31,894 bases of DNA from a virus. The notes below the pieces were generated by a model that saw nothing but the letters and a program-made list of their open reading frames with translations, had not been told where the DNA came from and made no database searches. The position numbers were made by a program, and so were the translations under genes. Within the stretch, counting starts at the first letter, position 1. Every line of letters begins with the position of its first letter. The stretch is from the IMG/VR virus record IMGVR_UViG_3300017917_000415, positions 1-31,894 of that record. One strand, written 5' to 3'. This document shows positions 2,266 through 19,080 of the stretch, piece after piece.

Positions 2266-3282
2266 ATGGCAGAATTAAAATCTAAAGAAGATATTCTATA
2301 CTTTATGAAAAGTGGCTTATTGAGAATAAGCCGGAGTGACCTACGGTTCATAACAAATCTGCAAACCATCGCTAATACAAAAAAGTATGTTACTAGCAAT
2401 CAAGCAAATCTACTTGACAAAATCATCGTAAAATACGAACGGCAAATAGCCAAACATGAATTACATGTTAATCATCTAGTTTCTCTACCCTGGAATGTAG
2501 AAGTTTTAGAAAGTGCCAATTCATACACCAATGCATTTATTGTCATTGAGCATGGAAGAATATATTTCAGATCACCGTATAACAAACATTTTATAACAGA
2601 CTTTAGGAATAATTCAGCGGGATTGTTAACGTGGAATATGGAGTTAAAAAGGTATGAGGGTGATTATAGCACTGCTGCCTTGAAACTATTAACAACAATG
2701 GTTCCTAAATATTTCAACACAGTAAATTACTGTGAGGAAACTACTAGGCTCTTAGATTCTATTGCGAGATATAATGGCAAGTTATACTGGGACCCTACAC
2801 TAGTATCCGTTAATGATCGTTTAATGATTGTTGCTGCCAACCAACATCTTAATGAAGCGTTAAAGGATGTTGAATTGAATGCTGATATGAAAACTCTTGC
2901 GTTATTGGCAAACTACGGAGTTAAAGTACATCACTCATTACTGCAAACTGATGCAGAAATATTTGCTGCCAAGTATGATCCTATAGTAGAAATAGCAGAC
3001 ATTTCTAACCTAGTTGTGTGGTTAAAAGAATTAGAATGCGACTATGTATACTTGTCAGGTGGAAATAGTTTAAGCAGAATCATTAAGATTATGATTTCAG
3101 AGTTAAATAGTAAGAACATCATGCACTCTGTGGTCACGTATAGAGAAAAGCCATCAGACCCTACTCAATTCAAATTCCCAGTGTTAGTAAGATTCACACG
3201 CACAGGAAACATTGACGTTGAACCAAAAAGAATTGCCAAAATTATCACAATGGTAAATTCTGAACCAATAGACATAAAATGA
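2266..3282 (+). CDS. Unknown protein heading the uvsW operon (338 aa)
   Basis: Not recognised with confidence. Around residues 45-60 it has a NQANLLDKIIVKYERQ segment of a type seen near the N-termini of some phage nucleic-acid enzymes. After that come a mixed alpha/beta region and a C-terminal part that could form a nucleotide-binding-like strand (CDYVYLSGGNSL, then conserved basic residues). There is no Walker A or nuclease signature. It overlaps uvsW by four bases (ATGA), so a role with that helicase in recombination or replication is likely, though only from context. The start at ATG 2266 is favoured over the out-of-frame ATG at 2262. Confidence 0.75.
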   Translation: MAELKSKEDILYFMKSGLLRISRSDLRFITNLQTIANTKKYVTSNQANLLDKIIVKYERQIAKHELHVNHLVSLPWNVEVLESANSYTNAFIVIEHGRIYFRSPYNKHFITDFRNNSAGLLTWNMELKRYEGDYSTAALKLLTTMVPKYFNTVNYCEETTRLLDSIARYNGKLYWDPTLVSVNDRLMIVAANQHLNEALKDVELNADMKTLALLANYGVKVHHSLLQTDAEIFAAKYDPIVEIADISNLVVWLKELECDYVYLSGGNSLSRIIKIMISELNSKNIMHSVVTYREKPSDPTQFKFPVLVRFTRTGNIDVEPKRIAKIITMVNSEPIDIK

Positions 3283-4766
3283 AACAGTGTAAATTAATAA
3301 TCAAAGATGAAGTAAACGTAAAGCTTGAGGGCTTAGAACTGGGTGATCGCAAGACACTGTTAAAGATGTTTGAGTTTGAAGTGCCCGGTGCACGATATCT
3401 ACCTAGTGTTCGTTTAGGTAGATGGAATGGTAAGACAAGTTATTTTGCATTGGGTGGTAGCACATACATTAATCTGCTTCCAGAGATTCTACCTCTGTTA
3501 GATCAAGCAGGATATGATATTGATCTAGATGACCAACGTGAATACACAACCACATTCAATTTTGCTCAAGTGTCCGAGGAGACATTCAAGCACAAGGTTT
3601 GGCCCGCAAAGCACCCCATGGCGGGACAACCTGTTGTATTGCGTGACTATCAAATTGAAATCATCAACAACTTTCTAGCAAACCCTCAGTCAATACAAGA
3701 AGTCGCAACTGGCGCAGGCAAGACATTAACAACAGCGGCACTGAGTTTAAGTGTAGAAGAATATGGAAGAAGTATCGTTATCGTCCCTAATAAGGACCTC
3801 GTTCGTCAGACAGAAGCTGATTATATCAACTTGGGTCTTGATGTTGGTGTTTATTTTGGTGACCGTAAAGAACTTGGACGTACCCACACGATATGTACAT
3901 GGCAGTCGCTTAACAACATGATGAAGAAAACTCAGTCAGGAGAGGCTGAAGTTTCTATTGTAGAATTCATTGAGGATGTTGTTTGCGTCATGGTTGACGA
4001 AGTACACATGGCTAAAGCTGACGCACTAAAAGCATTATTGACAGGTCCAATGGCACGTATTCCTATTCGTTGGGGCTTGACCGGAACTATACCTAAGTCT
4101 AAATTTGAATTCATGTCATTGTTTGTTAGCTTAGGTAACGTGATCGGTAAGTTGTCTGCAAAAGAATTGCAAGACAAGGGAGTACTTGCACAATGTCACG
4201 TGAACATTGTACAGCTAAAAGATGAAGTTGAGTTTACCAACTATCAAAGCGAACTGAAATATCTAACTGAAAACAGTGAGCGTTTAGATGCCATTGCTAC
4301 ACTTATAAAGAAGGTTTCTGAAGGTGGCAATACACTGATATTAGTTGATAGAATCAGTGCTGGTAAAGAACTACAGCGTAGATTAAGTAACATATTCAGT
4401 CTATTGAAAGACGCACCTGATGTATCTTTTGTTTCGGGTGAAACTAATCTAACTGAACGTAGGGAAAGCTATGACGAAGTAGCAACAGCAAGCAATAAGA
4501 TTATCATTGCAACATATGGCGTAGCCGCAGTCGGTATCAATATACCTCGCATCTTTAACTTGGTTCTGTTAGAGCCCGGAAAGTCGTTCGTCAGAGTTAT
4601 TCAGTCAATCGGACGAGGGATTCGTAAAGCAGAGGACAAAGACTTTGTTCAAATCTGGGATATTACCAGCACATGCAAGTTTGCAAAACGTCATTTGACT
4701 CAACGAAAAAATTACTACAAAGAAGCAAATTATCCATTTGATCTTGAAAAACTAGTCTATAAGTGA
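3279..4766 (+). CDS. uvsW: UvsW-like superfamily 2 DNA/RNA helicase
   Basis: A 495-residue SF2 helicase, close to T4 UvsW (about 500 residues). Motif I is ATGAGKT with the P-loop Gly-Ala-Gly-Lys-Thr at residues 145-149. Motif II is DEVH at 240-243. Motif III is LTGT shortly after. The second RecA-like domain contains GINIPR and the arginine-finger motif QSIGRGIRK (442-450). The N-terminal ~110 residues match the position of the UvsW substrate-recognition domain. In T4, UvsW unwinds branched DNA and R-loops and helps switch replication from origin- to recombination-dependent mode. It is translationally coupled to the gene at 2266. Confidence 0.95.
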   Translation: MKQCKLIIKDEVNVKLEGLELGDRKTLLKMFEFEVPGARYLPSVRLGRWNGKTSYFALGGSTYINLLPEILPLLDQAGYDIDLDDQREYTTTFNFAQVSEETFKHKVWPAKHPMAGQPVVLRDYQIEIINNFLANPQSIQEVATGAGKTLTTAALSLSVEEYGRSIVIVPNKDLVRQTEADYINLGLDVGVYFGDRKELGRTHTICTWQSLNNMMKKTQSGEAEVSIVEFIEDVVCVMVDEVHMAKADALKALLTGPMARIPIRWGLTGTIPKSKFEFMSLFVSLGNVIGKLSAKELQDKGVLAQCHVNIVQLKDEVEFTNYQSELKYLTENSERLDAIATLIKKVSEGGNTLILVDRISAGKELQRRLSNIFSLLKDAPDVSFVSGETNLTERRESYDEVATASNKIIIATYGVAAVGINIPRIFNLVLLEPGKSFVRVIQSIGRGIRKAEDKDFVQIWDITSTCKFAKRHLTQRKNYYKEANYPFDLEKLVYK

Positions 4767-4772
4767 TATTAT
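4744..4772 (+). promoter_or_regulatory. Promoter predicting a leaderless mRNA (gene at 4779)
   Basis: TTGAAA (4744-4749), a 17-base spacer and TATTAT (4767-4772), with an extended -10 TG at 4764-4765. Six bases lie between the -10 box and ATG 4779. The -35 and most of the spacer lie inside the 3' end of uvsW. No Shine-Dalgarno is present upstream of the ATG. Confidence 0.6.
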
Positions 4773-4778
4773 TAAAAT

Positions 4779-5279
4779 ATGAACATATTATTGTTAGATA
4801 ACACAAAATACAATTTAGAAAATCTCCCAGAAGAAGTAGATGATCTTAGATTCGCCATCTTAGATAACTCCAATCCTCAAAACGTTGATTACCATTATAT
4901 CCCTCTTATTTTCTTAGAGTCTTTTAGCGCACCCGCACTAGTTTTGCGAATAGGTGATGCTACTATCAAGATGCCAGTTGATTGGCAAATATTGATAGGA
5001 GAAAAAGAACACGGTGACTTAGAGACACTACCACTTACTAGTATCAATGACAGAGGATTTAATGCGTTTGAATTTAATCCATTAACAAGTTTCAGCCCAA
5101 GCTTCTTACCTATTGAAATTATAGACATATACCATGATGTAACATGGTATGCACCTAGATTAAAGAACGGTCAATTCTTGTGCGTACCTATTGACGATGG
5201 CAAAGAACCCAGATGTGTTTACTTTGTTAAAGAGATTAGTAGAAACTGTGAGATTGTAGATTATAGTCAGGCATTCTAA
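4779..5279 (+). CDS. Conserved T4-like protein of unknown function (166 aa)
   Basis: A soluble acidic protein with no membrane segment or catalytic motif that I can name. Its pattern (MNILLLDN start, a central IGEKEHGDLETLPLTSINDRGF segment, and a Trp/Tyr-containing C-terminal half) is of a kind I associate with genes beside uvsW in marine T4-like phages, where function is unassigned. It has its own probable leaderless promoter and abuts the next gene by TAATG, so it probably belongs to the replication set. Confidence 0.8.
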   Translation: MNILLLDNTKYNLENLPEEVDDLRFAILDNSNPQNVDYHYIPLIFLESFSAPALVLRIGDATIKMPVDWQILIGEKEHGDLETLPLTSINDRGFNAFEFNPLTSFSPSFLPIEIIDIYHDVTWYAPRLKNGQFLCVPIDDGKEPRCVYFVKEISRNCEIVDYSQAF

Positions 5280-5875: not shown

Positions 5876-6554
5876 TCTGCCGCACTATGGATGTGAATTC
5901 TGTGGCCGTACATTTGCACGTGAGTCTACTATCACTAAGCATATTTGCGAATACAAACACAGATGGCTAGAAAAAGATAGAGCAGGAAACCGTATTGGCT
6001 TTCAAGTTTGGTTACAGTTCTATAAAAAGAACAGTGCAAGTTCTAAGAATCGCACATATGAAGAATTCATAAAGTCTGCGTACTACACTGCATTCGTTAA
6101 GTTTGGTAATTACTGCGTTGACATAAATGCCATTAACGTTGGTAGATTTGCAGATTGGCTATTAAAGAACCAAGTAAAGATTGATACATGGTGCGCAGAC
6201 AGTACATATACCAAGTACTTGATTGATTACTTGAGAGTAGAAGATCCGTTAGACGCTATCGCTAGAAGCATTGAAACAACATTGTCAATGGCAGAGACTG
6301 CGGGTATTCTGAGCAAAGATATACTACGCTATGGAAATGCAAACAGAATATGCCATAACATTACCGTGGGTAAGATTAGTCCGTGGATGCTGTATCAATG
6401 TCCTAGTGGTACACAGTTCTTGGGTAACTTGAATGATTCTCAAGTTAATATGATTATTGACTATATCAATCCAGAACAATGGAAGATCAAATTCAATCGT
6501 GAGCCAGAGAATGTTAAGCAAGTAAAAGAGATACTTGCACTAGCGGGTTACTGA
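5835..6554 (+). CDS. C2H2 zinc-finger phage protein (239 aa)
   Basis: The N-terminus has one zinc finger: C20-x2-C23-x12-H36-x5-H42, with the typical aromatic and Leu/Ile positions between. The remaining ~190 residues are a largely alpha-helical domain with conserved-looking aromatic motifs (YEEFIKSAYYTAFVKFG and GKISPWMLYQC). Similar single-finger proteins occur next to replication genes in T4-like phages of marine bacteria; I know of no proven role, and DNA or RNA binding is inferred. It overlaps the gp62-like gene by 41 bases. No later Met or Val start precedes the finger, so the ATG at 5835 is needed. Confidence 0.8.
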   Translation: MKKSSNTKKTSETDLPHYGCEFCGRTFARESTITKHICEYKHRWLEKDRAGNRIGFQVWLQFYKKNSASSKNRTYEEFIKSAYYTAFVKFGNYCVDINAINVGRFADWLLKNQVKIDTWCADSTYTKYLIDYLRVEDPLDAIARSIETTLSMAETAGILSKDILRYGNANRICHNITVGKISPWMLYQCPSGTQFLGNLNDSQVNMIIDYINPEQWKIKFNREPENVKQVKEILALAGY

Positions 6555-7750
6555 TGGATCCCATATTTTGCTCATTAGCCCACACAGGGTTTAACGCTAC
6601 TAGTAGTGGCACAGCAACACCTTGCTGTGCAATTGCCCACAAGTACATACCCGAAAGAAGAAGTCGCAAGCCCTTGATTGAAAAGCTGAATCATATTAAT
6701 TTGATTCGTGTTAGAGCGCAACTAAAAGCTGGATTATGGCCAAGCGAATGCTCAACTTGCAAAAAATCAGAGGCTGCGAATTTAGGTTCACTAAGAACAG
6801 TGTTCAATCAGTATAGATTAGATAGAGGACTAGATACTAATCTTACAGGTACAGTTACTCCGGCAGACATATATTCATTGCATGTATCAGTGGGAAACAA
6901 ATGCAACAGTAAGTGTATGACTTGCAATCCAGGCTCCAGCAATCTATGGCAAGATGAATGGAAGACGGTTTGGAATATAAATCAAATCACTAACAATAGC
7001 GATTCAATCTTAGACAACCCATTAGCGATAGACGAGTTAATAACAGATTTTGTCAACTTAAAGAAGATTACATTCTTAGGAGGCGAACCTACTATCAATG
7101 ATAACCACCTAATATACCTAAACAAGCTTATAGAAAATAACAGAAGCACTGATATTGATTTGGGGTATGTCACTAATCTAACAGGCATTGATGACTCATT
7201 GCTTGATGTATGGAGTAAGTTTAGAAACATTGACCTTAACATATCAATAGATGCATACGGGGCAAAGAACGATTATATTCGTTATCCTATTAAATGGCAA
7301 AAGGTAGAATCAAACCTAAGAAAATTTTTAGATTGGGCTAGCAAAGACAAAATTTCTATAGGTCTTAGTCTAACACCCAGTGCCTTTAACTGTATTCATT
7401 TAGATGAAGTTTATGAGTTTTGGTACAGTCTATTGGCAGAATACAATCTACCCATGTACTATGGCATTGCATTGAATAAGATAACTTATCCTATGTATAC
7501 CAGTATGCGTATCACATCATTGTCTTATCGCAACACAGGGATTACTAAGCTAGAAAATATAAAAAAGAAACTACCGCTTGAGTCCCACCGTTCAATTGAC
7601 TATTGTATTGAAATGTTAAACGAACCTATGTTAGATACTGAAACTATAGAAACAGGAAAACACTTTATACAAAAGTCGGACTTGTATCGCAAGCGAAATC
7701 TAAGAGATTATGTACCCGAACTATACGATGAACTATGGAAAAGAAACTAA
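6554..7750 (+). CDS. Radical SAM protein with SPASM/twitch-like cysteines
   Basis: A 398-residue protein. The radical SAM cluster motif C117-x3-C121-x2-C124 is followed by the GGEP motif at 176-179, which contacts S-adenosylmethionine in this family. The N-terminal region has more cysteines (C6, the C24-C25 pair, and a CSTCKKSE block) that could hold an auxiliary cluster. Twitch/SPASM-type radical SAM proteins are recurrent in T4-like phages of aquatic bacteria, where the substrate is unknown; peptide or RNA modification are the usual proposals. It starts in a TGATG overlap with the zinc-finger gene and overlaps the first gene of the small-gene array. Confidence 0.85.
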   Translation: MDPIFCSLAHTGFNATSSGTATPCCAIAHKYIPERRSRKPLIEKLNHINLIRVRAQLKAGLWPSECSTCKKSEAANLGSLRTVFNQYRLDRGLDTNLTGTVTPADIYSLHVSVGNKCNSKCMTCNPGSSNLWQDEWKTVWNINQITNNSDSILDNPLAIDELITDFVNLKKITFLGGEPTINDNHLIYLNKLIENNRSTDIDLGYVTNLTGIDDSLLDVWSKFRNIDLNISIDAYGAKNDYIRYPIKWQKVESNLRKFLDWASKDKISIGLSLTPSAFNCIHLDEVYEFWYSLLAEYNLPMYYGIALNKITYPMYTSMRITSLSYRNTGITKLENIKKKLPLESHRSIDYCIEMLNEPMLDTETIETGKHFIQKSDLYRKRNLRDYVPELYDELWKRN

Positions 7751-7974
7751 TTAACGGTATTGACAATACACATGACTATTGCGTGAAAATACCTTTTGAT
7801 TATTTGCATAGTGTTGCTACAGGGGTAGAAAGATGGAATGATGTTTGTGCTAAAGCTATGGAAATGTTTGGGTTACCCGGAGACAAATATACCTGTAGAT
7901 TCCTAAAAGATAGAATTGAGTTTTGGTTCCTAGACGAAAAAGATGCTATGATGTTTGAACTATGTTGCGGATAA
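7735..7974 (+). CDS. First gene of the small-protein array, diverged LRW-type end (79 aa)
   Basis: The C-terminal half fits the array pattern: a WNDVC helix, then FGLPG, then an IEFWFLDEKDAMMFEL strand-turn-helix, but it ends in CCG where others have RW. Its N-terminal YCVKIPFDYL segment resembles VDCVKLPFEYL in the C-terminal part of the protein at 13672, just beyond the other end of the array. It overlaps the radical SAM gene by 16 bases. Function unknown. Confidence 0.7.
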   Translation: MEKKLINGIDNTHDYCVKIPFDYLHSVATGVERWNDVCAKAMEMFGLPGDKYTCRFLKDRIEFWFLDEKDAMMFELCCG

Positions 7975-8381
7975 GAGCAAGAATTCGTAAGTGGCGCGGA
8001 GAGCGTAAACTAAAAAAGAGCGGCTATTTGACATGGCGAGCTTATAAACATAACAATGATAACGGTGTAGTAAAATACGCTGATTGTGTAGAAGATTACT
8101 ACACCGACTACCCATACATCTACTCTTGCCCAAATCCAAAGCATTACGCATATCAATTGGTAGCCGATTATGGTCCCGCTGGTCAGTATTTCGGGTATGA
8201 AGAAATGAACGATTGGTGCCATGAAAAGATAAGGTGGAACTTTCGTTGTGATTTTCATCGGGTTTGGGAGAACCAATTTACGGGAAAAATGGAGTTTAAT
8301 GATATTGGCGGTTCTGATATAATATACTTTGCATTCAAACGGGAACAAGATTTCACACATTTTTTATTGAGATGGGCTTAA
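7962..8381 (+). CDS. Array protein with long basic N-terminus, ends FLLRWA (139 aa)
   Basis: The longest member of the LRW family proper. Residues 1-25 are strongly basic (repeated Arg/Lys), followed by a Tyr-rich segment with HYAYQLVADYGPAG, then the family helix (EMNDWC) and the terminal IYFAFKREQDFTHFLLRW block. The length suggests this may be closer to the ancestral form, and the shorter neighbours would be derived from its C-terminal half (inference). The first codons overlap the previous stop. The next gene starts inside the AGATGG that encodes its Arg-Trp. Confidence 0.75.
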   Translation: MLRIRARIRKWRGERKLKKSGYLTWRAYKHNNDNGVVKYADCVEDYYTDYPYIYSCPNPKHYAYQLVADYGPAGQYFGYEEMNDWCHEKIRWNFRCDFHRVWENQFTGKMEFNDIGGSDIIYFAFKREQDFTHFLLRWA

Positions 8382-8614
8382 GAATAATTTACATTGAATA
8401 TCAAACACCATTAACATCTGATGTTATTAAATGGTTTATTGATACGTTCGGATCCCCTCAAGAATGGGATGGTGAAGTCTTGGCTCCGACACAGTTAAAA
8501 AGTGGATATCAATGGGCTAACGGTAAGCACGTATTAAATGGAAATCACTATCCTACTCCATGTATTTGGTGTACAGAAAAAGCGTATATGATGTATAAAT
8601 TGAGGTGGTTATAA
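8372..8614 (+). CDS. LRW-family small protein, ends YKLRWL (80 aa)
   Basis: Starts at an ATG formed out of frame by the AGA TGG (Arg-Trp) codons of the previous gene. The family helix here is VIKWFIDTFGSP, and the end is CTEKAYMMYKLRWL. Its C-terminal block is closest to that of the array gene at 13379 (CMSEQIYTYYKLVE). The TTGAGGTGG at 8600-8608 encodes Leu-Arg-Trp and supplies GAGG for the start at 8614. No catalytic motif is visible. Confidence 0.75.
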   Translation: MGLRIIYIEYQTPLTSDVIKWFIDTFGSPQEWDGEVLAPTQLKSGYQWANGKHVLNGNHYPTPCIWCTEKAYMMYKLRWL

Positions 8615-8868
8615 TGGAGCAAGGTAGCTTTAAATACAAGACTGAAAAATATTATGGCAGCACCCGAAACGTTCATACTGTGTCCTGGAAGGGAAGGGGC
8701 GAAGTTGATGGAGACGAGATTCGCCAATGGTGCTTAAATAATTTTGGAACACCTGGATATCAAGATGCTATTGAAGGTACTCGTTGGCTAGATAATATAT
8801 CAGAGCATGGTGAAATCTTCTTGTGCAATGATGAAGACTTGACCTTCTTTTTACTGAAGTGGACATGA
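8614..8868 (+). CDS. LRW-family small protein, ends FLLKWT (84 aa)
   Basis: The start at ATG 8614 (TAATG overlap) is chosen over the in-frame GTG at 8605 because GAGG at 8602-8605 is eight bases upstream. It is a good representative of the family: IRQWCLNNFGTPG, an RW pair in the middle, then IFLCNDEDLTFFLLKW. The N-terminal ~30 residues are specific to this copy. Function unknown. Confidence 0.75.
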   Translation: MEQGSFKYKTEKYYGSTRNVHTVSWKGRGEVDGDEIRQWCLNNFGTPGYQDAIEGTRWLDNISEHGEIFLCNDEDLTFFLLKWT

Positions 8869-9074
8869 GCCTTGAATTTCTAATCCACAAAGTATTCATC
8901 AAGTTACTAGATACTGACACTGATGAAATTGATATGTGGTGCATTGAGCATTTTGGTGAGCAAGGCATAAAATGGGGTAGTTACTTTGCTGATGATAGCC
9001 CATATAATTATGACCAATATTATATATTTGAAAATCACGAAAATGCAGTACTTTTTACTCTAACATGGGTATGA
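8865..9074 (+). CDS. LRW-family small protein, ends FTLTWV (69 aa)
   Basis: Starts in an ATGA overlap with the preceding gene, with GAAGTGG from the LKW codons just upstream. It has the helix IDMWCIEHFGEQG and the terminal strand-helix YYIFENHENAVLFTLTW; Thr replaces Arg in the final motif. The first ~20 residues are copy-specific. Confidence 0.7.
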   Translation: MSLEFLIHKVFIKLLDTDTDEIDMWCIEHFGEQGIKWGSYFADDSPYNYDQYYIFENHENAVLFTLTWV

Positions 9075-9304
9075 GAAGATTACATTTTGAAGGCCCTACA
9101 TGGCACGATACCAAACCAGGTTGGCACGAACTTGAATTGAACCTTAACGGGCAACCAAAACGCTATCGGGAAATTATAGAATGGCTGTATAATACTATAG
9201 ACAAGTGTGAAAGACACTGTAGATGGTTTGAAACCACAAACGGAATAAAAATAAAATTTAGATATGAACGAGATTACATTGTGGCAATGTTGAGGTGGTC
9301 ATAA
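9071..9304 (+). CDS. LRW-family small protein, ends AMLRWS (77 aa)
   Basis: ATG 9071 gives the ATGA overlap typical of the array; an in-frame ATG at 9065 is the alternative. It contains the helix REIIEWLYNTI and the ending IKFRYERDYIVAMLRW. The N-terminal 35 residues are rich in Trp, His and Pro and differ from all other members. TTGAGGTGG at 9290-9298 closes the gene. Confidence 0.7.
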   Translation: MRRLHFEGPTWHDTKPGWHELELNLNGQPKRYREIIEWLYNTIDKCERHCRWFETTNGIKIKFRYERDYIVAMLRWS

Positions 9305-9483
9305 TGGAAATTAAAACTATATACCGTCACCAGGCCGCAAACGACTGGGACGAAAAAGTTAAATGGTGTCAAGAAAATCTATATCACGGGGGTTATTATG
9401 AACCCAAATGGTATTTACGTTATCCTTGGATAGAGTTTGATGATGAGCAAGAATATATTTGGTTTACTTTGAGGTGGACATGA
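9304..9483 (+). CDS. LRW-family small protein, minimal form, ends FTLRWT (59 aa)
   Basis: The shortest array member and so nearly the bare domain: a first strand (IKTIYRH), the helix EKVKWCQENLYHGG, a Trp-containing middle, and WIEFDDEQEYIWFTLRW. The start at ATG 9304 overlaps the previous stop (TAATG), with GAGG eight bases upstream. TTGAGGTGG at 9469-9477 provides the next ribosome-binding site. Confidence 0.75.
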   Translation: MEIKTIYRHQAANDWDEKVKWCQENLYHGGYYEPKWYLRYPWIEFDDEQEYIWFTLRWT

Positions 9484-9689
9484 AATTCATAAAGATTGAT
9501 ATTCCAGAAGAACGCAGAATAGAAGCAACTAAGTGGACACGAGAATTTATCGGTAGAGCCAAAGGTGAAAACGGTGAACTCCATATGAGCGAAATCATTT
9601 GGTACAAAACTTCTTTTCCAAACGGTATAGCTAGATTTTATTTCCGTGACCCTAAACACGCTACATTGTTTATGTTGAGGTGGCTATGA
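9480..9689 (+). CDS. LRW-family small protein, ends FMLRWL (69 aa)
   Basis: Starts with an ATGA overlap, and GAGG from the upstream LRW codons lies five bases before the ATG. It has the first strand KFIKIDIP, the helix EATKWTREFIG, and ARFYFRDPKHATLFMLRW at the end, a clear strand-Asp-helix ending. TTGAGGTGG at 9675-9683 serves the next gene. Confidence 0.75.
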   Translation: MKFIKIDIPEERRIEATKWTREFIGRAKGENGELHMSEIIWYKTSFPNGIARFYFRDPKHATLFMLRWL

Positions 9690-10036
9690 GAGTAAGCATT
9701 TGGTATCGCACAGAATTACAGCAACCTCCTAAGTCAGGTCATTATCTTGCTTATAGAGGCTGGGGCATTGCAGGCAAAGCTGATGATGACAGTGACTGGG
9801 GCTATGTCTATTATGATAAGAAACTAGACGAGTGGCGTGATTATCAATCCGGTGGCCACTATGCTATCGTTTATTATTGGACTGATGCTACACCTGATGA
9901 CTGGACAGACGAAGACCCTCCTAGCATTCAACTACGCAAACTAAAAGAAGAACACAATGTAGCACTAGACGATGCTTGGAAGAAAGTTTGTGAAGCAATA
10001 GACCAGTACAACATGATTAAAGAGTTGGTACGATGA
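9686..10036 (+). CDS. Unrelated insert in the array, DUF551-like Trp-rich protein (116 aa)
   Basis: It does not end in LRW and lacks the family helix. The region PPKSGHYLAYRGWGI, a WGYVYYDKKLDEWRD strand pair, and VYYWTDATPDDW resemble the layout of short DUF551-type phage proteins (a Pro-Gly turn, paired strands, a closing W-x-P). The assignment is tentative. A charged helical tail follows. It still uses the GAGG in the preceding LRW codons as its ribosome-binding site, so any gene can follow an LRW cassette. Confidence 0.65.
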   Translation: MRVSIWYRTELQQPPKSGHYLAYRGWGIAGKADDDSDWGYVYYDKKLDEWRDYQSGGHYAIVYYWTDATPDDWTDEDPPSIQLRKLKEEHNVALDDAWKKVCEAIDQYNMIKELVR

Positions 10037-10440
10037 CACATCAATTGGATACAATAAAGCAGTTGGCTATTGACATTGAGGGCTGGAAGCCCGGTGAATT
10101 GTATGTTATCGCCGGCAGACAGTCTGGTAAGAGTATGCTCAACCAAATATACAATACAAATCTCTGCAAAGAAATTACTTTAACAGGTCAACAGAAGTTG
10201 ATGGAACTTATCTGGGGTCAACCTATGAAAGAAGAAAAATACAAATTCAGTCGTGCTAATTGGTATCAAGCAGAATTCAATGATAAGGATTACTTTGAAG
10301 TAGACGCCTGGTGTAGTCAACAGTTTGGTCCTCATCCTGCTAATCCAGATGCGTGGAGTAGGTGGTGGCATAAGTTTCACAATAGCATCTTGTTTCGTGA
10401 TGAAAAAGACTATGTGTTGTTTATGTTGAGGTGGAGTTGA
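10033..10440 (+). CDS. Chimera: truncated P-loop N-terminus joined to an LRW domain (135 aa)
   Basis: Residues 1-37 read like the front of a phage P-loop ATPase: a GWKPGELYVIAGRQSGKS segment in which A27-x4-G32-K33-S34 satisfies the Walker A pattern. There is no Walker B, and the chain soon changes into an LRW-family domain with VDAWCSQQFGP, a Trp-rich middle, and ILFRDEKDYVLFMLRWS. It is too short to be a complete ATPase, so it looks like a fusion of a broken ATPase start with an array domain. Starts in ATGA overlap. Confidence 0.7.
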   Translation: MTHQLDTIKQLAIDIEGWKPGELYVIAGRQSGKSMLNQIYNTNLCKEITLTGQQKLMELIWGQPMKEEKYKFSRANWYQAEFNDKDYFEVDAWCSQQFGPHPANPDAWSRWWHKFHNSILFRDEKDYVLFMLRWS

Positions 10441-10682
10441 TGTTTATTCATACATACGAACAACAGCCCGATTGGCGAATCAAGACTGCCTGGCTAGTTG
10501 CGGCATTTATGACACCTAAAGAAAATCGTAAAGAGATTACTAAATGGTGCTATAAAACTTATGGTGCACCGGGCATGAATACTTTCACTAAACAGACTAG
10601 GTGGAAAGACAGTATTCAATATGGTGAGGTATATTTCAGTCGCAAAGAAGACCTTGAGTGGTTTGTATTGAGGTGGTCATGA
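10440..10682 (+). CDS. LRW-family small protein, ends FVLRWS (80 aa)
   Basis: ATG 10440 overlaps the preceding TGA, with GAGG eight bases upstream, preferred over the in-frame GTG at 10431. It has the helix EITKWCYKTYGAPG, an RW pair, then GEVYFSRKEDLEWFVLRW. This is one of the most canonical copies; its C-terminal block closely matches the gene at 11295 (KRKEDYEWFVLRWS). Confidence 0.75.
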   Translation: MFIHTYEQQPDWRIKTAWLVAAFMTPKENRKEITKWCYKTYGAPGMNTFTKQTRWKDSIQYGEVYFSRKEDLEWFVLRWS

Positions 10683-10879
10683 TAAAGAGACAATATCGTA
10701 GAGGACAACCTGGCTATTTCAATAACTTCATCATGTCACATGATCCTGAAGGTACTATAGAAACAGAACTTAAATTGTACAAGGCTACTATAGCGAAAAG
10801 CAAAAACAAACATTACATGGTGAATGTAAAGTGGCACGACCATGAACTATACACAATTTTTGTATTGAGGTACGCATGA
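10679..10879 (+). CDS. LRW-family small protein, ends FVLRYA (66 aa)
   Basis: Starts with ATGA overlap, with GAGG five bases upstream. The N-terminal half is basic and lacks the WC helix. The ending MVNVKWHDHELYTIFVLRY is family-like with Tyr for Trp, encoded TTGAGGTAC, so the ribosome-binding GAGGT is kept although the final codon changed. The in-frame upstream TTG at 10658 is not needed. Confidence 0.7.
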   Translation: MIKRQYRRGQPGYFNNFIMSHDPEGTIETELKLYKATIAKSKNKHYMVNVKWHDHELYTIFVLRYA

Positions 10880-11298
10880 CTGACAACGAATTGATTGATT
10901 ATACTATTAAGTTTGATACTGACCCAGTCAGAGTTAGACTTGCTACATACATGGATCGTCACCCCGGTGCTATCCTAGATGACCTTGAACGAGCAGGTAT
11001 GGATCAAACACACTGTACCTTTAGAGATAAAGACACTTGCAATGATTATCTTCCTGGTCAGTATATCACTCACCTTGAAGAAGAAGTTCGTTATCTACAA
11101 GAACAACTACATGACGCATTGGATGAAATTGAAAGCATGAAGCCCATGAAAGTCAGTGAGTTGATTGAACAGCTACGACAAGGAATCACTACTGAAAAAT
11201 TTATGAGAGAACGTGAAGAACGCAGACGGTACGAAGCACAAAAAGAGCGTGATGAAATGAAAAACAAACTTGACATGTGGGCAATACTGAACCGATGA
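10876..11298 (+). CDS. Non-LRW array gene with a coiled coil (140 aa)
   Basis: Not an LRW protein. After an N-terminal acidic region containing a HCTFRDKDTC segment, residues from about 65 to the end form a long charged heptad-like helix (HLEEEVRYLQEQLHDALDEIESM and a basic continuation rich in Arg and Glu), probably an oligomerising coiled coil. It may bind another phage or host protein; no partner is evident. Starts with ATGA overlap and again uses the preceding GAGGT. Confidence 0.7.
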   Translation: MTDNELIDYTIKFDTDPVRVRLATYMDRHPGAILDDLERAGMDQTHCTFRDKDTCNDYLPGQYITHLEEEVRYLQEQLHDALDEIESMKPMKVSELIEQLRQGITTEKFMREREERRRYEAQKERDEMKNKLDMWAILNR

Positions 11299-11537
11299 AT
11301 ACCAATTCTGTTCACAATCTTATTGATAGTCAAATTCTGGCCCAGCTTAGGAAGCTTAATAAGCCTAGTAAAACTTATTGGCCCCATCAGATTATTCTGA
11401 CTTCTTGGCGTGATGTGAATCCTGCTGAACGATTTTGCTATGATAATTTCAAAAGCAAGAACTGGAGAAACGTCGGGGGTGACTTTTATTTCAAGCGTAA
11501 AGAAGATTATGAATGGTTTGTGTTGAGGTGGTCATAA
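11295..11537 (+). CDS. LRW-family small protein, ends FVLRWS (80 aa)
   Basis: ATG 11295 is in ATGA overlap with the coiled-coil gene; the in-frame GTG at 11277 is less likely. The family helix is modified (ERFCYDNFKSKNW), and the ending is DFYFKRKEDYEWFVLRW. TTGAGGTGG at 11523-11531 provides the ribosome-binding site for 11537. The N-terminal ~40 residues are copy-specific. Confidence 0.75.
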   Translation: MNTNSVHNLIDSQILAQLRKLNKPSKTYWPHQIILTSWRDVNPAERFCYDNFKSKNWRNVGGDFYFKRKEDYEWFVLRWS

Positions 11538-11821
11538 TGGAAATATTTTATGGCGGTGGAGGCGCAAGCAATCCTAGTTTTATATACCAATTTAAAGTAA
11601 AAAAATGCACGACTGAAATGTACGATTGGGCTAAAAAATATCCTAGTAAAGGTCCCTTCAGTCGCTGGTACGTAGAATGGGCTATGGTTTATAACAGTGC
11701 AGGTAGACAAAGAGATTATGATGTAATACAGATTGAACACAGTGAAGCAGCTAAAATATTCAAAATAGCATTTGCGGGCGAGTATGAAGATATCACTATG
11801 AAAGAGTACAGACTTGATTGA
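11537..11821 (+). CDS. Array gene of unknown type (94 aa)
   Basis: Starts TAATGG after the LRW-encoding GAGG, like 8614 and 9304. It begins with a Gly-rich segment, then has a TTEMYDWAKKYP helix that could correspond to the family WC helix, and a VIQIEHSEAAKIFKIAF strand-helix like the family ending, but it continues 15 residues further without LRW. It may be a diverged and extended family member. Confidence 0.65.
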   Translation: MEIFYGGGGASNPSFIYQFKVKKCTTEMYDWAKKYPSKGPFSRWYVEWAMVYNSAGRQRDYDVIQIEHSEAAKIFKIAFAGEYEDITMKEYRLD

Positions 11822-11828
11822 AGTCAAA

Positions 11829-12032
11829 ATGATTGACAAACTACCCATTGAGTTTTTGGTCATTGTAAATGAACTCAAACAAAAGGGTTATGTTCACGGT
11901 GTTGACTTTGACTTTACATATCATCCACCCAAATTTGATAACATAACAGGTCATCCCGTGTATAATAGATGTGTAGTCTTTACGTTTTATAAAGAAGAAT
12001 TAGCAACATGGTTCAATCTACTGTATCAATAA
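11829..12032 (+). CDS. Diverged LRW-like small protein, ends FNLLYQ (67 aa)
   Basis: ATG 11829 is used; an in-frame TTG at 11814 would overlap the previous gene and is the alternative. The chain has a predicted helix (EFLVIVNELKQKG), then GVDFDFTYH and the ending CVVFTFYKEELATWFNLLYQ, which matches strand-acidic-helix-F-x-L of the family with LY instead of RW. No strong ribosome-binding site is visible. Confidence 0.65.
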   Translation: MIDKLPIEFLVIVNELKQKGYVHGVDFDFTYHPPKFDNITGHPVYNRCVVFTFYKEELATWFNLLYQ

Positions 12033-12298
12033 CCGCAAGCGATATTTTGTCCGACCAATATGCTGGTATGTTGGCAGATGAAATCCAAAAAGAAATTGAC
12101 AATGAAATTATGATAGACATGCTAGTGTTAGGTGGTTGGACTAAAGTTGAATTAGAACGACTCAAAGATAGATATGAATCAATTGATATTGAACAATGGA
12201 TAGACGAAAACTGCACCGGTAAACACGCTAAGTTAGGCAGAACGTTTGTGTTTGAAAAGAAACAAGATGCTGAATGGTTCATACTTAAATGGCTATAA
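12008..12298 (+). CDS. LRW-family small protein, ends FILKWL (96 aa)
   Basis: It overlaps the previous gene by 25 bases. A unique N-terminal ~45 residues (acidic, with an EIQKEIDNEIMIDML helix) precede a typical domain: IDIEQWIDENC, a GRTFVFEKKQDAEWFILKW ending. The start of the next gene lies within the AAATGG that encodes its Lys-Trp. Like 10033, it looks like a foreign N-terminus joined to the array domain. Confidence 0.7.
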   Translation: MVQSTVSITASDILSDQYAGMLADEIQKEIDNEIMIDMLVLGGWTKVELERLKDRYESIDIEQWIDENCTGKHAKLGRTFVFEKKQDAEWFILKWL

Positions 12299-12585
12299 AC
12301 TGGGGTCGCAGTATAGGTTGGAACATTGACATGCATAGATACAAGAAGCAAAAAGTGGAATATACTATTATTGAAAATGGCGCTGATTGTTATCCATGGC
12401 GTGAAGTATTTGTTTGGTGGCCTTGGGTTACTACTGTCACTGGTAAAAGAGTATGGTGGCAAAAAGTATATAAGCGTAAAGTATGGGTAGTATGGGGCAC
12501 AGGCTTTCATATGGAACCAGAAACGCAATACGCTACTGCATTTGATTTATTAGTTTATGACAATACGTATAGTCCTCAAGCGTGA
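12289..12585 (+). CDS. Trp-rich small array protein, unknown (98 aa)
   Basis: The ATG arises from the AAA TGG codons of the previous gene. The protein is remarkably rich in Trp and basic residues in the middle (VFVWWPWV, RVWWQKVYKRKVWVVW). It has no LRW ending and finishes with YATAFDLLVYDN, which might be a very weak echo of the family helix. Function unknown. Confidence 0.65.
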   Translation: MAINWGRSIGWNIDMHRYKKQKVEYTIIENGADCYPWREVFVWWPWVTTVTGKRVWWQKVYKRKVWVVWGTGFHMEPETQYATAFDLLVYDNTYSPQA

Positions 12586-12778
12586 TTTGACTGGTGAACA
12601 AGAACAATGGCTTGCTAAGAATGTAGGTCCAAGAATGCATTACCTACATAATAGTAAGGGTGGACAAGGCTGGATAGCAAAATACGAGTGGGCTCCGGGC
12701 ATGGTTAGCAGAGAATGGGTCCTTACGATTGAAGATGACCGCTATGCTACATTTTTTACATTGATGTTTCCACAATGA
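12557..12778 (+). CDS. Diverged LRW-like small protein, ends FTLMFPQ (73 aa)
   Basis: It overlaps its neighbour by 29 bases. The first strand (TIRIVLKRDLT), a helix EEQEQW-like region, a Trp-containing middle and the ending WVLTIEDDRYATFFTLMF correspond to family positions, with MF replacing RW. The order of elements is the same as in the canonical copies. Confidence 0.65.
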   Translation: MTIRIVLKRDLTGEQEQWLAKNVGPRMHYLHNSKGGQGWIAKYEWAPGMVSREWVLTIEDDRYATFFTLMFPQ

Positions 12779-13053
12779 ATATATCTAAAGACTTTCAAGA
12801 TTTTGATCCCGATGATCCAGACGGTGATTTCCGTAGGCGCAGATGGGATTACTGGTCGGCACTAAAACTTGTGCGTAAAGAATATATGCAAACACTTGAT
12901 GCATTAGAGGGCCAGTTTGATGCATATGATTTTGAAGACTACCTAGAAGAAAACTATGGAATCAAAATGAACATAGTTGACGGGAATATTACAGATGGAT
13001 ATAAGATTATGGATGAGGCCAAGTATACTTTCTTTTTATTGAGATTTCAATGA
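12775..13053 (+). CDS. LRW-like small protein, ends FLLRFQ (92 aa)
   Basis: ATGA overlap at the start. The N-terminal third is very acidic then basic (DPDDPDGDFRRRRWDYW). The domain part has FEDYLEENYGI and a MDEAKYTFFLLRF ending, with Phe in place of the final Trp. It is probably a true family member with a copy-specific front. Confidence 0.7.
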   Translation: MNISKDFQDFDPDDPDGDFRRRRWDYWSALKLVRKEYMQTLDALEGQFDAYDFEDYLEENYGIKMNIVDGNITDGYKIMDEAKYTFFLLRFQ

Positions 13054-13400
13054 CTACTCCATTTGAAATAGTTGATATGCCCAACAACGATTGGGCAGTG
13101 TCATGGCCTTCATTTGATGATGCTTTCACCGAAAGCATGAAGTTTAACATATTGAAATGCATCTTTAATGAAATACGTTGTGAAGAAGTGGGGTTAGGGG
13201 TAGCCGCGAATAAACATGAGGAATCTACTATCATGTGGATAAACTGTAATATTTGGTTCACTGACATGACAGATGAATATAACCAATATCTTTATAAGTA
13301 TTACCACATTAGGGGTGCAGTATTTCATAAACAGGCTGATGCTGAAAAGTTCAAAGATATATTAGAAAAGAGGTATATGTGGCAATTACTCAAGGAATAA
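13050..13400 (+). CDS. Array gene, possible diverged family member (116 aa)
   Basis: ATGA overlap with the previous gene. It begins with a strand-turn (FEIVDMPNNDWAVSW) and has AVFHKQADAEKFKDIL near the end, which resembles the family strand-acidic-helix block but is followed by about 15 additional residues instead of LRW. The middle has a MWINCNIWF strand. Function unknown. Confidence 0.65.
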   Translation: MTTPFEIVDMPNNDWAVSWPSFDDAFTESMKFNILKCIFNEIRCEEVGLGVAANKHEESTIMWINCNIWFTDMTDEYNQYLYKYYHIRGAVFHKQADAEKFKDILEKRYMWQLLKE

Positions 13401-13663
13401 ACGGAACTTTTTTCCCGGCTCAAGACTATGAAAATGTAGAGCCTATATATTTCCGAAAATTTAAAAAAACTATAGCCGTGGATTCTGTTTGGGAAACACG
13501 TATATTCTACGAGATAACCCGTTTCCCCTTAGGTAGACAATCAACTATTGATTTGTTATGTAAGAACTACGGTGATCCTAAGTATAGTTATACTTGGTGG
13601 TCAACACCTAATGGGATATGCATGAGTGAGCAGATTTATACTTACTACAAGTTAGTGGAATAA
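13379..13663 (+). CDS. Last array gene, diverged family member, ends YYKLVE (94 aa)
   Basis: The start is GTG 13379, with AGAGG seven bases before it. It has a helix STIDLLCKNYGDPK followed by a TWWSTPNGICMSEQIYTYYKL ending that is nearest to the array gene at 8372. It ends in VE instead of RW. The array stops here: eight bases later the larger gene at 13672 begins. Confidence 0.65.
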   Translation: MAITQGINGTFFPAQDYENVEPIYFRKFKKTIAVDSVWETRIFYEITRFPLGRQSTIDLLCKNYGDPKYSYTWWSTPNGICMSEQIYTYYKLVE

Positions 13664-17911: not shown

Positions 17912-18472
17912 ATGGCTAATGATATAATGATTGACATTGAGAGTTTGGATACTAGTCCTGACTGCGTAATCCTAACTATAGGAGCAGTGCGTTTTGATCC
18001 CAGAGGCAATGGTGTGGTTGAAAGACTAGAGCTAAAACCCACGGTTGAAGATCAAACAGAAATTTACAATAGGAGTATCAATGAAGATACATTACGATGG
18101 TGGAGTGAGCAGAGCCCTGAAGCACTTGAAGAAGCATTGGGAGACCAAGGACGCACTCCATTTAGTGAATGCATGGAGACCCTTTATAAGTTTTGTTGGA
18201 ATCGCCGTGCTGTGTGGAGCAATGGCGCTCCATTTGACCTTGTCGTTATGGAGCATGCCTGGAGACAAGTTAGTAACAAGCCTAATCCCATCCCCTGGCC
18301 CTTCTGGTCAATGCGAGACACAAGAACATTGTACGAAATCGCAGGTGTCAGCCTCAAAGACGGTGGACATTCAACAAGTCACAAAGCAGTAGAAGATGCT
18401 GAAAGACAAGCTATTGTCGTACAAAAAGCATATATGAAACTGATGAAAGCAGGATTGGCACAACCGCGATGA
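17912..18472 (+). CDS. dexA: DexA-like 3'-5' DNA exonuclease (DEDDh)
   Basis: A 186-residue exonuclease of the DnaQ/RNase T fold. The metal-binding residues are visible in order: D8-x-E10 in MIDIES, D109 in NGAPFDL, H157 in TSHKAV and D162 in EDAERQ, giving a DEDDh set. T4 DexA (227 residues) has the same layout and degrades DNA from the 3' end. It is somewhat shorter here. It heads a two-gene operon with the mini-DnaE gene (ATGA overlap) behind a predicted leaderless promoter. The symbol is given by family similarity. Confidence 0.8.
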   Translation: MANDIMIDIESLDTSPDCVILTIGAVRFDPRGNGVVERLELKPTVEDQTEIYNRSINEDTLRWWSEQSPEALEEALGDQGRTPFSECMETLYKFCWNRRAVWSNGAPFDLVVMEHAWRQVSNKPNPIPWPFWSMRDTRTLYEIAGVSLKDGGHSTSHKAVEDAERQAIVVQKAYMKLMKAGLAQPR

Positions 18473-19080
18473 AACTTAATGCAGATATTGATATTGACTT
18501 TGGAGACAGAGATAAGTTGTTGAAACTCATTCAGCACACTCCGGCTGCAATGCGTAACGTTAAGCCCATGCGTAGACACAACACTGGTATATACATCACA
18601 GATATACCCTACGACCCTGTATATAATATGGCTGCTATTGACTACACTGAAGCAGAAAAGAGGGGATACTTTAAGTTAGACTTACTGAATGTTCACGTGT
18701 ATGAGAATGTCAAGGATGAAAATCATTTGCAGGAACTAATGTCAGAACCTGATTGGTCTAAACTAAATGATAAACAGTTTGTTGAAAAATTGATTCACTT
18801 GAGCAATCATTATCAGTCATTGCGTAAGATGCCTGAACCAGTGAATAGTATTCCTAGACTAGCAATGTTTTTAGCGTTGATTCGTCCAGCTAAGAAACAT
18901 CTAATAGGTAAAACGTGGAAAGAAGTAAGTCAGACGATTTGGGAAAAAGAAGCTGATGGGTACAGCTTTAAAAAGAGTCACGCTATTGCTTATGCACAAT
19001 TAGTCGTGGTACATATGAATTTGTTAGTCCAGTCTCTTGACCAGGGTGATACTTCTACGTTTACTTCTGCGTTTGTTTAA
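18469..19080 (+). CDS. Miniature DnaE-like protein (203 aa)
   Basis: Motifs of the bacterial DNA polymerase III alpha subunit appear in the right order but with large parts missing. DIDIDF (D6, D8, D10) corresponds to PDxDVDF holding two catalytic Asp (E. coli D401 and D403). HNTGIYITDIP matches the HxxG region. GYFKLDLL (K69, D71) matches GLxKFDFLG with the third catalytic Asp. LALIRPA matches ALxRPG, and FKKSHAIAYA (167-176) matches FNKSHAxAYA. DnaE is over 1100 residues, and these segments span about 360 there against 170 here. Whether it polymerises, binds DNA, or is a decoy is unknown. It is coupled to the exonuclease gene. Confidence 0.65.
   Translation: MKLNADIDIDFGDRDKLLKLIQHTPAAMRNVKPMRRHNTGIYITDIPYDPVYNMAAIDYTEAEKRGYFKLDLLNVHVYENVKDENHLQELMSEPDWSKLNDKQFVEKLIHLSNHYQSLRKMPEPVNSIPRLAMFLALIRPAKKHLIGKTWKEVSQTIWEKEADGYSFKKSHAIAYAQLVVVHMNLLVQSLDQGDTSTFTSAFV

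Follow-up and report, generated by a model that had tools for sequence, protein, structure and literature searches.

We analyzed a 31,894-nt stretch of viral DNA (IMG/VR record IMGVR_UViG_3300017917_000415, positions 1–31,894; hereafter the window) that carries an array of small protein-coding genes at 7735–13663. The open reading frame (ORF) map placed 22 small, co-directional ORFs in the array, tiled on the + strand and joined by short start/stop overlaps or 1-base TAATG junctions. The genes of the window mark it as a T4-like replication region: helicases, an exonuclease, a piece of a polymerase, a primase, and a DnaB-like helicase. The array continues an upstream operon, since a radical SAM protein gene (6554–7750) overlaps its first gene. 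The window contained no T4-type late promoter (TATAAATA), which hints that the array may be expressed early or in the middle of infection with the replication genes. Window features given below are all on the + strand.

A first-pass annotation had assigned 13 of these ORFs to one unnamed protein family with a terminal F-x-L-R-W motif, and all 13 were found at the coordinates it gave. We tested these core copies for homology using leave-one-out profiles against 200 shuffles (E at Z = 1000). Twelve of the 13 scored above 200/200 shuffles (E 4e-12 to 5e-3), while 12775, taken by itself, was not separated from shuffles. The family definition depends partly on the terminal motif, but six core copies (8614, 8865, 9071, 10033, 10440, and 11295) still scored above every shuffle with the last six residues cut off, which bears out a single family with homology beyond its terminal residues. 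Tryptophan made up 5.4% of residues in family members compared with 1.1–1.6% in other ORFs of T4-like phages. Members assigned by the profile test were 8372–8614, 9304–9483, 9480–9689, 10440–10682, and 11295–11537. Profile and locus comparison together supported 7962–8381 (a 139 aa subfamily with the core N-DIGG-x-D-I-I-Y-F-A-F), 8614–8868 and 9071–9304 (orthologues at 73% and 86% in L003), 10679–10879 (ending LRY), and 8865–9074, which is missing between its flanking genes in L003 and L004 and so marks a cassette gain or loss. Three further members, 10033–10440, 12008–12298, and 12775–13053, are described below with their modules and models.

The remaining ORFs changed the membership list. 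Four had been described as worn copies, but two of these belong to subfamilies kept in many other arrays: 7735–7974 by clustering and orthologues (a subfamily ending F-E-L-x-x-G without LRW) and 11829–12032 by clustering and locus comparison (a 34-locus subfamily ending NLLYQ here and LRW elsewhere). The third, 12557–12778, is a probable member ending TLMFPQ (profile test and locus comparison) and also has a conserved orthologue, while the relation of 13379 to the family was not significant in the leave-one-out profile test against shuffles. Membership of the residents 9686, 10876, 12289, and 13050 was not detectable with this family profile. By eye, 11537 resembled a member with a C-terminal extension, judging from a relative in L052 ending FTLRWL. 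The resident at 10876–11298 is a conserved non-member of 140 aa, coiled-coil-like by eye, with 77–87% identity in L003 and L006 while its neighbors change.

The end of a typical member appears to be read twice. The codons behind LRW were TTG AGG TGG, and these contain GAGGTG, the Shine-Dalgarno site of the following gene. GAGGTG is complementary to the 3′ end of 16S rRNA, and it lay 5 or 8 nt upstream of the next ATG, which itself overlapped or abutted the stop. The DNA tail TTGAGGTGG had seven copies in the window, every one within the array, compared with 0.17 expected. Dual-coding tails were located at 8600–8616 (TTGAGGTGG, encoding LRW and supplying the Shine-Dalgarno site for ATG 8614), 9290–9306 (ATG 9304), 9469–9482 (ATG 9480), 9675–9688 (ATG 9686), 10426–10442 (ATG 10440), 10668–10681 (ATG 10679), and 11523–11539 (ATG 11537). 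In translational coupling the Shine-Dalgarno site is located inside the upstream gene, and the array has the corresponding arrangement, with GAGGTG in gene 3′ ends as a purine-rich site just ahead of a start codon that overlaps the preceding stop or lies directly next to it. It differs from usual coupling in that the site belongs to a conserved protein motif repeated across paralogues, and for this reason the cassettes would be interchangeable.

Codon use and motif retention separated the two roles of this terminus. AGG made up 82% of Arg-site codons in coupled copies, a figure corrected for the search pattern; its share was 28% in uncoupled copies and 7.8% in the rest of the same ORFs. Loci gathered by protein similarity repeated this result (151/184 coupled copies, 82%; 10/27 other copies, 37%; 75/996 background, 7.5%). 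L[RK]W, counted with a domain profile built without the last six residues, was retained in 95/112 coupled copies (85%) vs 22/42 uncoupled copies (52%), with a p of 8e-5 after correction for search-pattern bias that is indicative only because related copies are not independent. Since both codon use and L[RK]W retention differ between coupled and uncoupled copies, the R-W of the terminal motif is best read as in part a ribosome-binding site, and the F and L as protein-level features. A pure protein tag was ruled out by the codon use and the loss of R-W in uncoupled copies; a pure DNA signal was ruled out by the persistence of F and L without coupling and by the 52% of uncoupled copies that keep LRW. 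The first-pass annotation held up for an unnamed family with a common C-terminal core, changing N-termini, and clustered homologues in T4-like viruses, but its terminal motif is partly a nucleotide-level signal. It had not anticipated this, nor that the units can be exchanged as cassettes, nor that the varying fronts of one class derive from conserved segments of core proteins of the same phage. If the junction works as described, a silent change of TTGAGGTGG to CTTCGTTGG would lower translation of the second gene and leave the first protein unaltered.

Related arrays were found on more than 100 uncultured viral contigs of up to 374 kb. A nine-member alignment showed too much diversity to yield a search pattern, so we used the junction DNA pattern instead, which matched at least 120 stretches. 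The locus set is biased to pattern-matching contigs except where stated, a bias we later corrected for, and all array-bearing genomes are metagenomic. At most matched loci, small ORFs with a terminal F-x-L-[RK]-W formed an array (up to 18 in 11 kb), and the motif lay within four residues of the stop in nearly all profile hits. On larger contigs the members were mostly concentrated in one stretch of several to ~20 kb, in keeping with the predicted clustering of homologues in other T4-like viruses. The collected set held 624 and later 690 distinct members, which formed 167 clusters at E 1e-3 with the last 22 residues removed, including 123 singletons. Gene 10033 had close relatives in five viral contigs. 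In G004, family members also stand alone outside the array (L170:13420–13731 and L174:13808–14104), ending LKW and LYW.

Comparison of related loci shows that the genes behave as cassettes, occurring in other orders with the same junction in the related phages L003, L004, and L006. L003 and L004 kept the backbone order of the window but had no orthologue of 8372, 8865, 9304, or 9480, and other cassettes were present. In L006, 11537 comes immediately after 10033 and 10440 immediately after 11295, the junction sequence being unchanged.

The N-terminal region is a separate, exchangeable module. Proteins with the 10033 body carried differing fronts, and 23 pairs had an N-terminal module in common with little or no similarity of the body, including window gene 10033 and L110|1007, which share a module on different bodies (E 4e-7). 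The source of several modules was the major capsid protein gp23. A tblastn search with one 10033-body protein matched gp23 in more than 1000 phage records, and module-bearing members hit Pfam Gp23 with E values of 4e-13, 3e-11, and 7e-7. A gp23 profile built from ten sequences hit 15 members vs 0 shuffled sequences, and 14 vs 0 reversed in another run, with hits falling at T4 residues ~92–138 and ~251–318. The homology was confined to segments of ~25–60 residues; module-bearing members contained no full-length capsid protein, and the 10033-type body was not gp23-like. A gp23 origin of this body, defined by KFSRA-W, found no support in the comparison. In the window, gene 12008 (12008–12298; profile and profile-profile match) has a gp23-like N-terminal helix with the segment YAGMLADEIQKEIDNEIMIDML at 12059–12124, and its N-module subfamily matched residues 164–210 of G004 gp23 in a profile-profile comparison (E 4e-6, probability 87%).

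Other core proteins contributed as well. Among non-redundant members, the Pfam scan identified Gp23 in 8/150 and the ClpX zinc finger in one, and the PHROGs scan identified the major head protein in seven, a reductase in one, and a DnaB-like helicase in one. Against the whole proteome of Pelagibacter phage Mosig, members hit gp23 repeatedly, ribonucleotide reductase once, and a few other proteins marginally, while the reversed control produced two hits, both marginal and on other targets. In the non-array part of the 320-kb G004, gp23 (nine queries) and ClpX were the core proteins hit, beside two stand-alone paralogues and marginal hits; the reversed set gave one hit. The profile of the P-loop modules matched the gp41-type helicase of G004 (E 8e-6), and their RQ[TS]GKS is the terminase Walker A in both G004 and Mosig. 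Resemblance to ribonucleotide reductase was limited to NLCxE and sometimes LCTLG, and the barrel domain of the large subunit was absent from module proteins. Gene 10033 carries two such motifs in its N-terminal motif string: a Walker A module, GRQSGKS (10114–10134), supported by the module shared with L110|1007 and by the helicase and terminase matches, and a ribonucleotide-reductase-like NLCKEI (10159–10176), supported by motif recurrence. Across 46 distinct N-termini of the 10033 body, gathered by protein similarity, 36/46 had at least one of NLCxE, RxxGKS, YYAPY, and GVQPM-like motifs and 15/46 had at least two (shuffle mean <0.01 for each motif).

We therefore read the modules of this class as copies of conserved core-protein stretches, namely gp23 92–138 and 251–318, YYAPY (resembling the gp23 C-terminal region), a gp41/terminase-like Walker A, the reductase NLCxE, and once a ClpX zinc finger. 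The last is the C4 zinc finger N-terminus of a member at L106:2321–2689 (−) (Pfam 2e-15); G004 encodes a 400-aa ClpX-like protein. P-loop modules in L003:3833–4090, L114, L148, L150, L110, L034, and window gene 10033 often started with D-[IL]-E-[TAS], which is like exonuclease motif I and may be another copied motif. In L158 (G026, 359 kb; 3033–4892), a different run of small genes had C-terminal ends such as ..DVSISVL and ..VVAQL; positions 3704–4030 contained the gp23 92–138 segment (E 1e-12) and positions 4385–4696, by eye, the gp23 N-terminus (MTKLLETTWGEAKRALMEDRR). From these gp23-like pieces, motif copying may be wider than this family.

Module and gp23 DNA agreed mostly at 60–90% of codon positions 1 and 2 but at only ~15–45% of position 3. 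Because third positions are near saturation while positions 1 and 2 agree, the modules appear to be old and maintained as protein; recent copying from gp23 was ruled out on the same grounds. This bears on whether the locus is a recombination hot spot, at which conserved junctions would swap cassettes and N-termini and functionless pieces of core genes would be taken up through recombination of conserved DNA. Pieces under no selection would be expected to decay, whereas these are kept as protein while their third positions are near saturation, and the same module recurs on several bodies. Many boundaries do have the same junction sequence, modules are located at the N-terminus, and many bodies have none, but on balance we consider a hot spot of this kind unlikely.

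The C-terminal 71 residues of 10033 (10033–10440; profile and predicted structure) were modeled as beta-alpha-beta-beta-alpha (pLDDT 89, pTM 0.75), and the divergent second body type, 12775 (12775–13053; predicted structure and locus comparison), as alpha-alpha-beta-beta-alpha (pLDDT 78). These two models, the only ones compared, have an alpha-beta-beta-alpha end in common. In comparison with ferredoxin-like and RRM folds the final strand was missing from the 10033 model, and PDB matches were weak (Z at most 4.2). Fold searches of the PDB gave no significant match for the domain, so no function was assigned by fold. The family also remained nameless, as first claimed, with no recurrent domain match in Pfam, PHROGs, or NCBIfam. 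BFVD contained similar predicted folds in uncharacterized proteins of uncultured phages, including the uncultured Caudovirales proteins A0A6J7WGD3 and A0A6J5L6V8 and others (33 and 38% identity for the two best), all listed without name or function. In cultured phage genomes the domain had no match at the DNA level and no convincing one at the protein level, the hits seen being the parent proteins of the modules, and no relative of the domain was found in bacterial genomes.

One common C-terminal unit with exchangeable fronts, and the ClpX zinc-finger front in L106, would suit adaptors in which the unit docks one partner, e.g., a protease or translation factor, and the N-modules are recognition tags that bring in binders of core motifs. 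No partner is known, the fold search gave no hint of one, and F-x-L-R-W is partly nucleotide-driven, which makes adaptors distinctly unlikely. We regard as improbable a general accessory array of diverse small host-takeover or anti-defense proteins, in which the module class is a side branch and most proteins act by their own N-terminal or surface specificities. It explains neither the core-protein modules nor their recurrence, for all that the diversity of bodies and the Trp content fit it.

The modules are united by their origin in those regions of essential phage proteins that can least tolerate mutation. If they serve as decoys on a shared scaffold, it would make sense that these regions, rather than arbitrary ones, were copied and retained. 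Host immune sensors should aim at features that phages cannot mutate, and precedents exist for gp23: Gol, a stretch of 29 residues reported to be the most conserved region of gp23, triggers Lit (PMC3014915), and capsid proteins trigger CapRel (PMC9712102) and Thoeris (PMC11312562). An array of such invariant features on one scaffold would occupy host sensors. Each cassette encodes a small protein, rich in Trp, that ends in the shared C-terminal beta-beta-alpha unit; in the decoy scheme this unit would serve as the fold or as a docking site for one partner of all members. In coupled cassettes the codons of the last residues, TTG AGG TGG, also form the Shine-Dalgarno site of the next cassette, so that any cassette could succeed another and be translated, and cassettes are gained, lost, and reordered between related phages at this junction.

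The anatomy alone, in which a large uncultured T4-like phage carries a cassette array with dual-coding junctions and core-protein modules, is in our judgment very probably correct. We propose more tentatively, as a possibility, that the array is a counter-immunity library of interchangeable cassettes, whose shared scaffold presents excised, invariant epitopes of essential proteins from the same phage to decoy host sensors, with junction codons that double as ribosome-binding sites. For anatomy and decoy mechanism taken together we estimate a probability of roughly 0.36. The role against host systems suggested by the first-pass annotation is compatible with the module findings and better motivated than before. 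Several points weigh against decoys. Core-protein modules are recognizable in ~5–10% of all family members and are concentrated in a few body types. The Walker A and NLCxE modules are individually short and weak (Pfam E 0.02–0.13) and rest on recurrence, and the motif counts over related N-termini are not independent observations. We know of no established sensor for ribonucleotide reductase or helicase motifs, and the decoy function is itself read from sequence.

The same modules could instead be interface peptides that bind full-length oligomers and poison or tune them, with the target belonging either to a co-infecting T4-like phage or to the late program of the phage itself. The source proteins are oligomeric (gp23, helicase, reductase, and ClpX form rings, lattices, or complexes), the segments are conserved across T4-like phages, and full-length gp23 is often encoded elsewhere in the large array-bearing viruses, as seen in several genomes. 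NLCxE and Walker A are catalytic rather than interface motifs, though, and an early copy of a phage's own gp23 segment would risk self-poisoning, so we find this interference or regulation unlikely.

Several known systems come close to these arrays. Module A, which spans T4 gp23 ~92–138, is the conserved first-quarter stretch that contains Gol (limits approximate), as in Gol/Lit (PMC3014915), but here the stretch is excised and fused to several different small bodies. Phage anti-defense and anti-CRISPR islands (PMC7648647) likewise consist of small, fast-changing, unnamed genes in one operon; the array differs from them in its shared C-terminal domain, dual-coding junction, and core-protein modules. 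We found no description of such arrays in a narrow search of the open-access literature. If the cassettes are decoys, the arrays would be a natural list of the phage features watched by bacterial immunity (gp23 segments, the Walker A of packaging and replication motors, the reductase active site, and ClpX), and every module would lead to a sensor, in some cases one still to be discovered. Regardless of any decoy role, a dual-coding junction that makes operon genes exchangeable and proteins assembled from excised motifs of the same genome's essential genes are both unusual solutions.

Downstream of the array, two adjacent short genes at 17912–19080 of the window matched part of the exonuclease profile PHROG 255 and a DNA polymerase family of 197 aa, and may represent a split polymerase or exonuclease.

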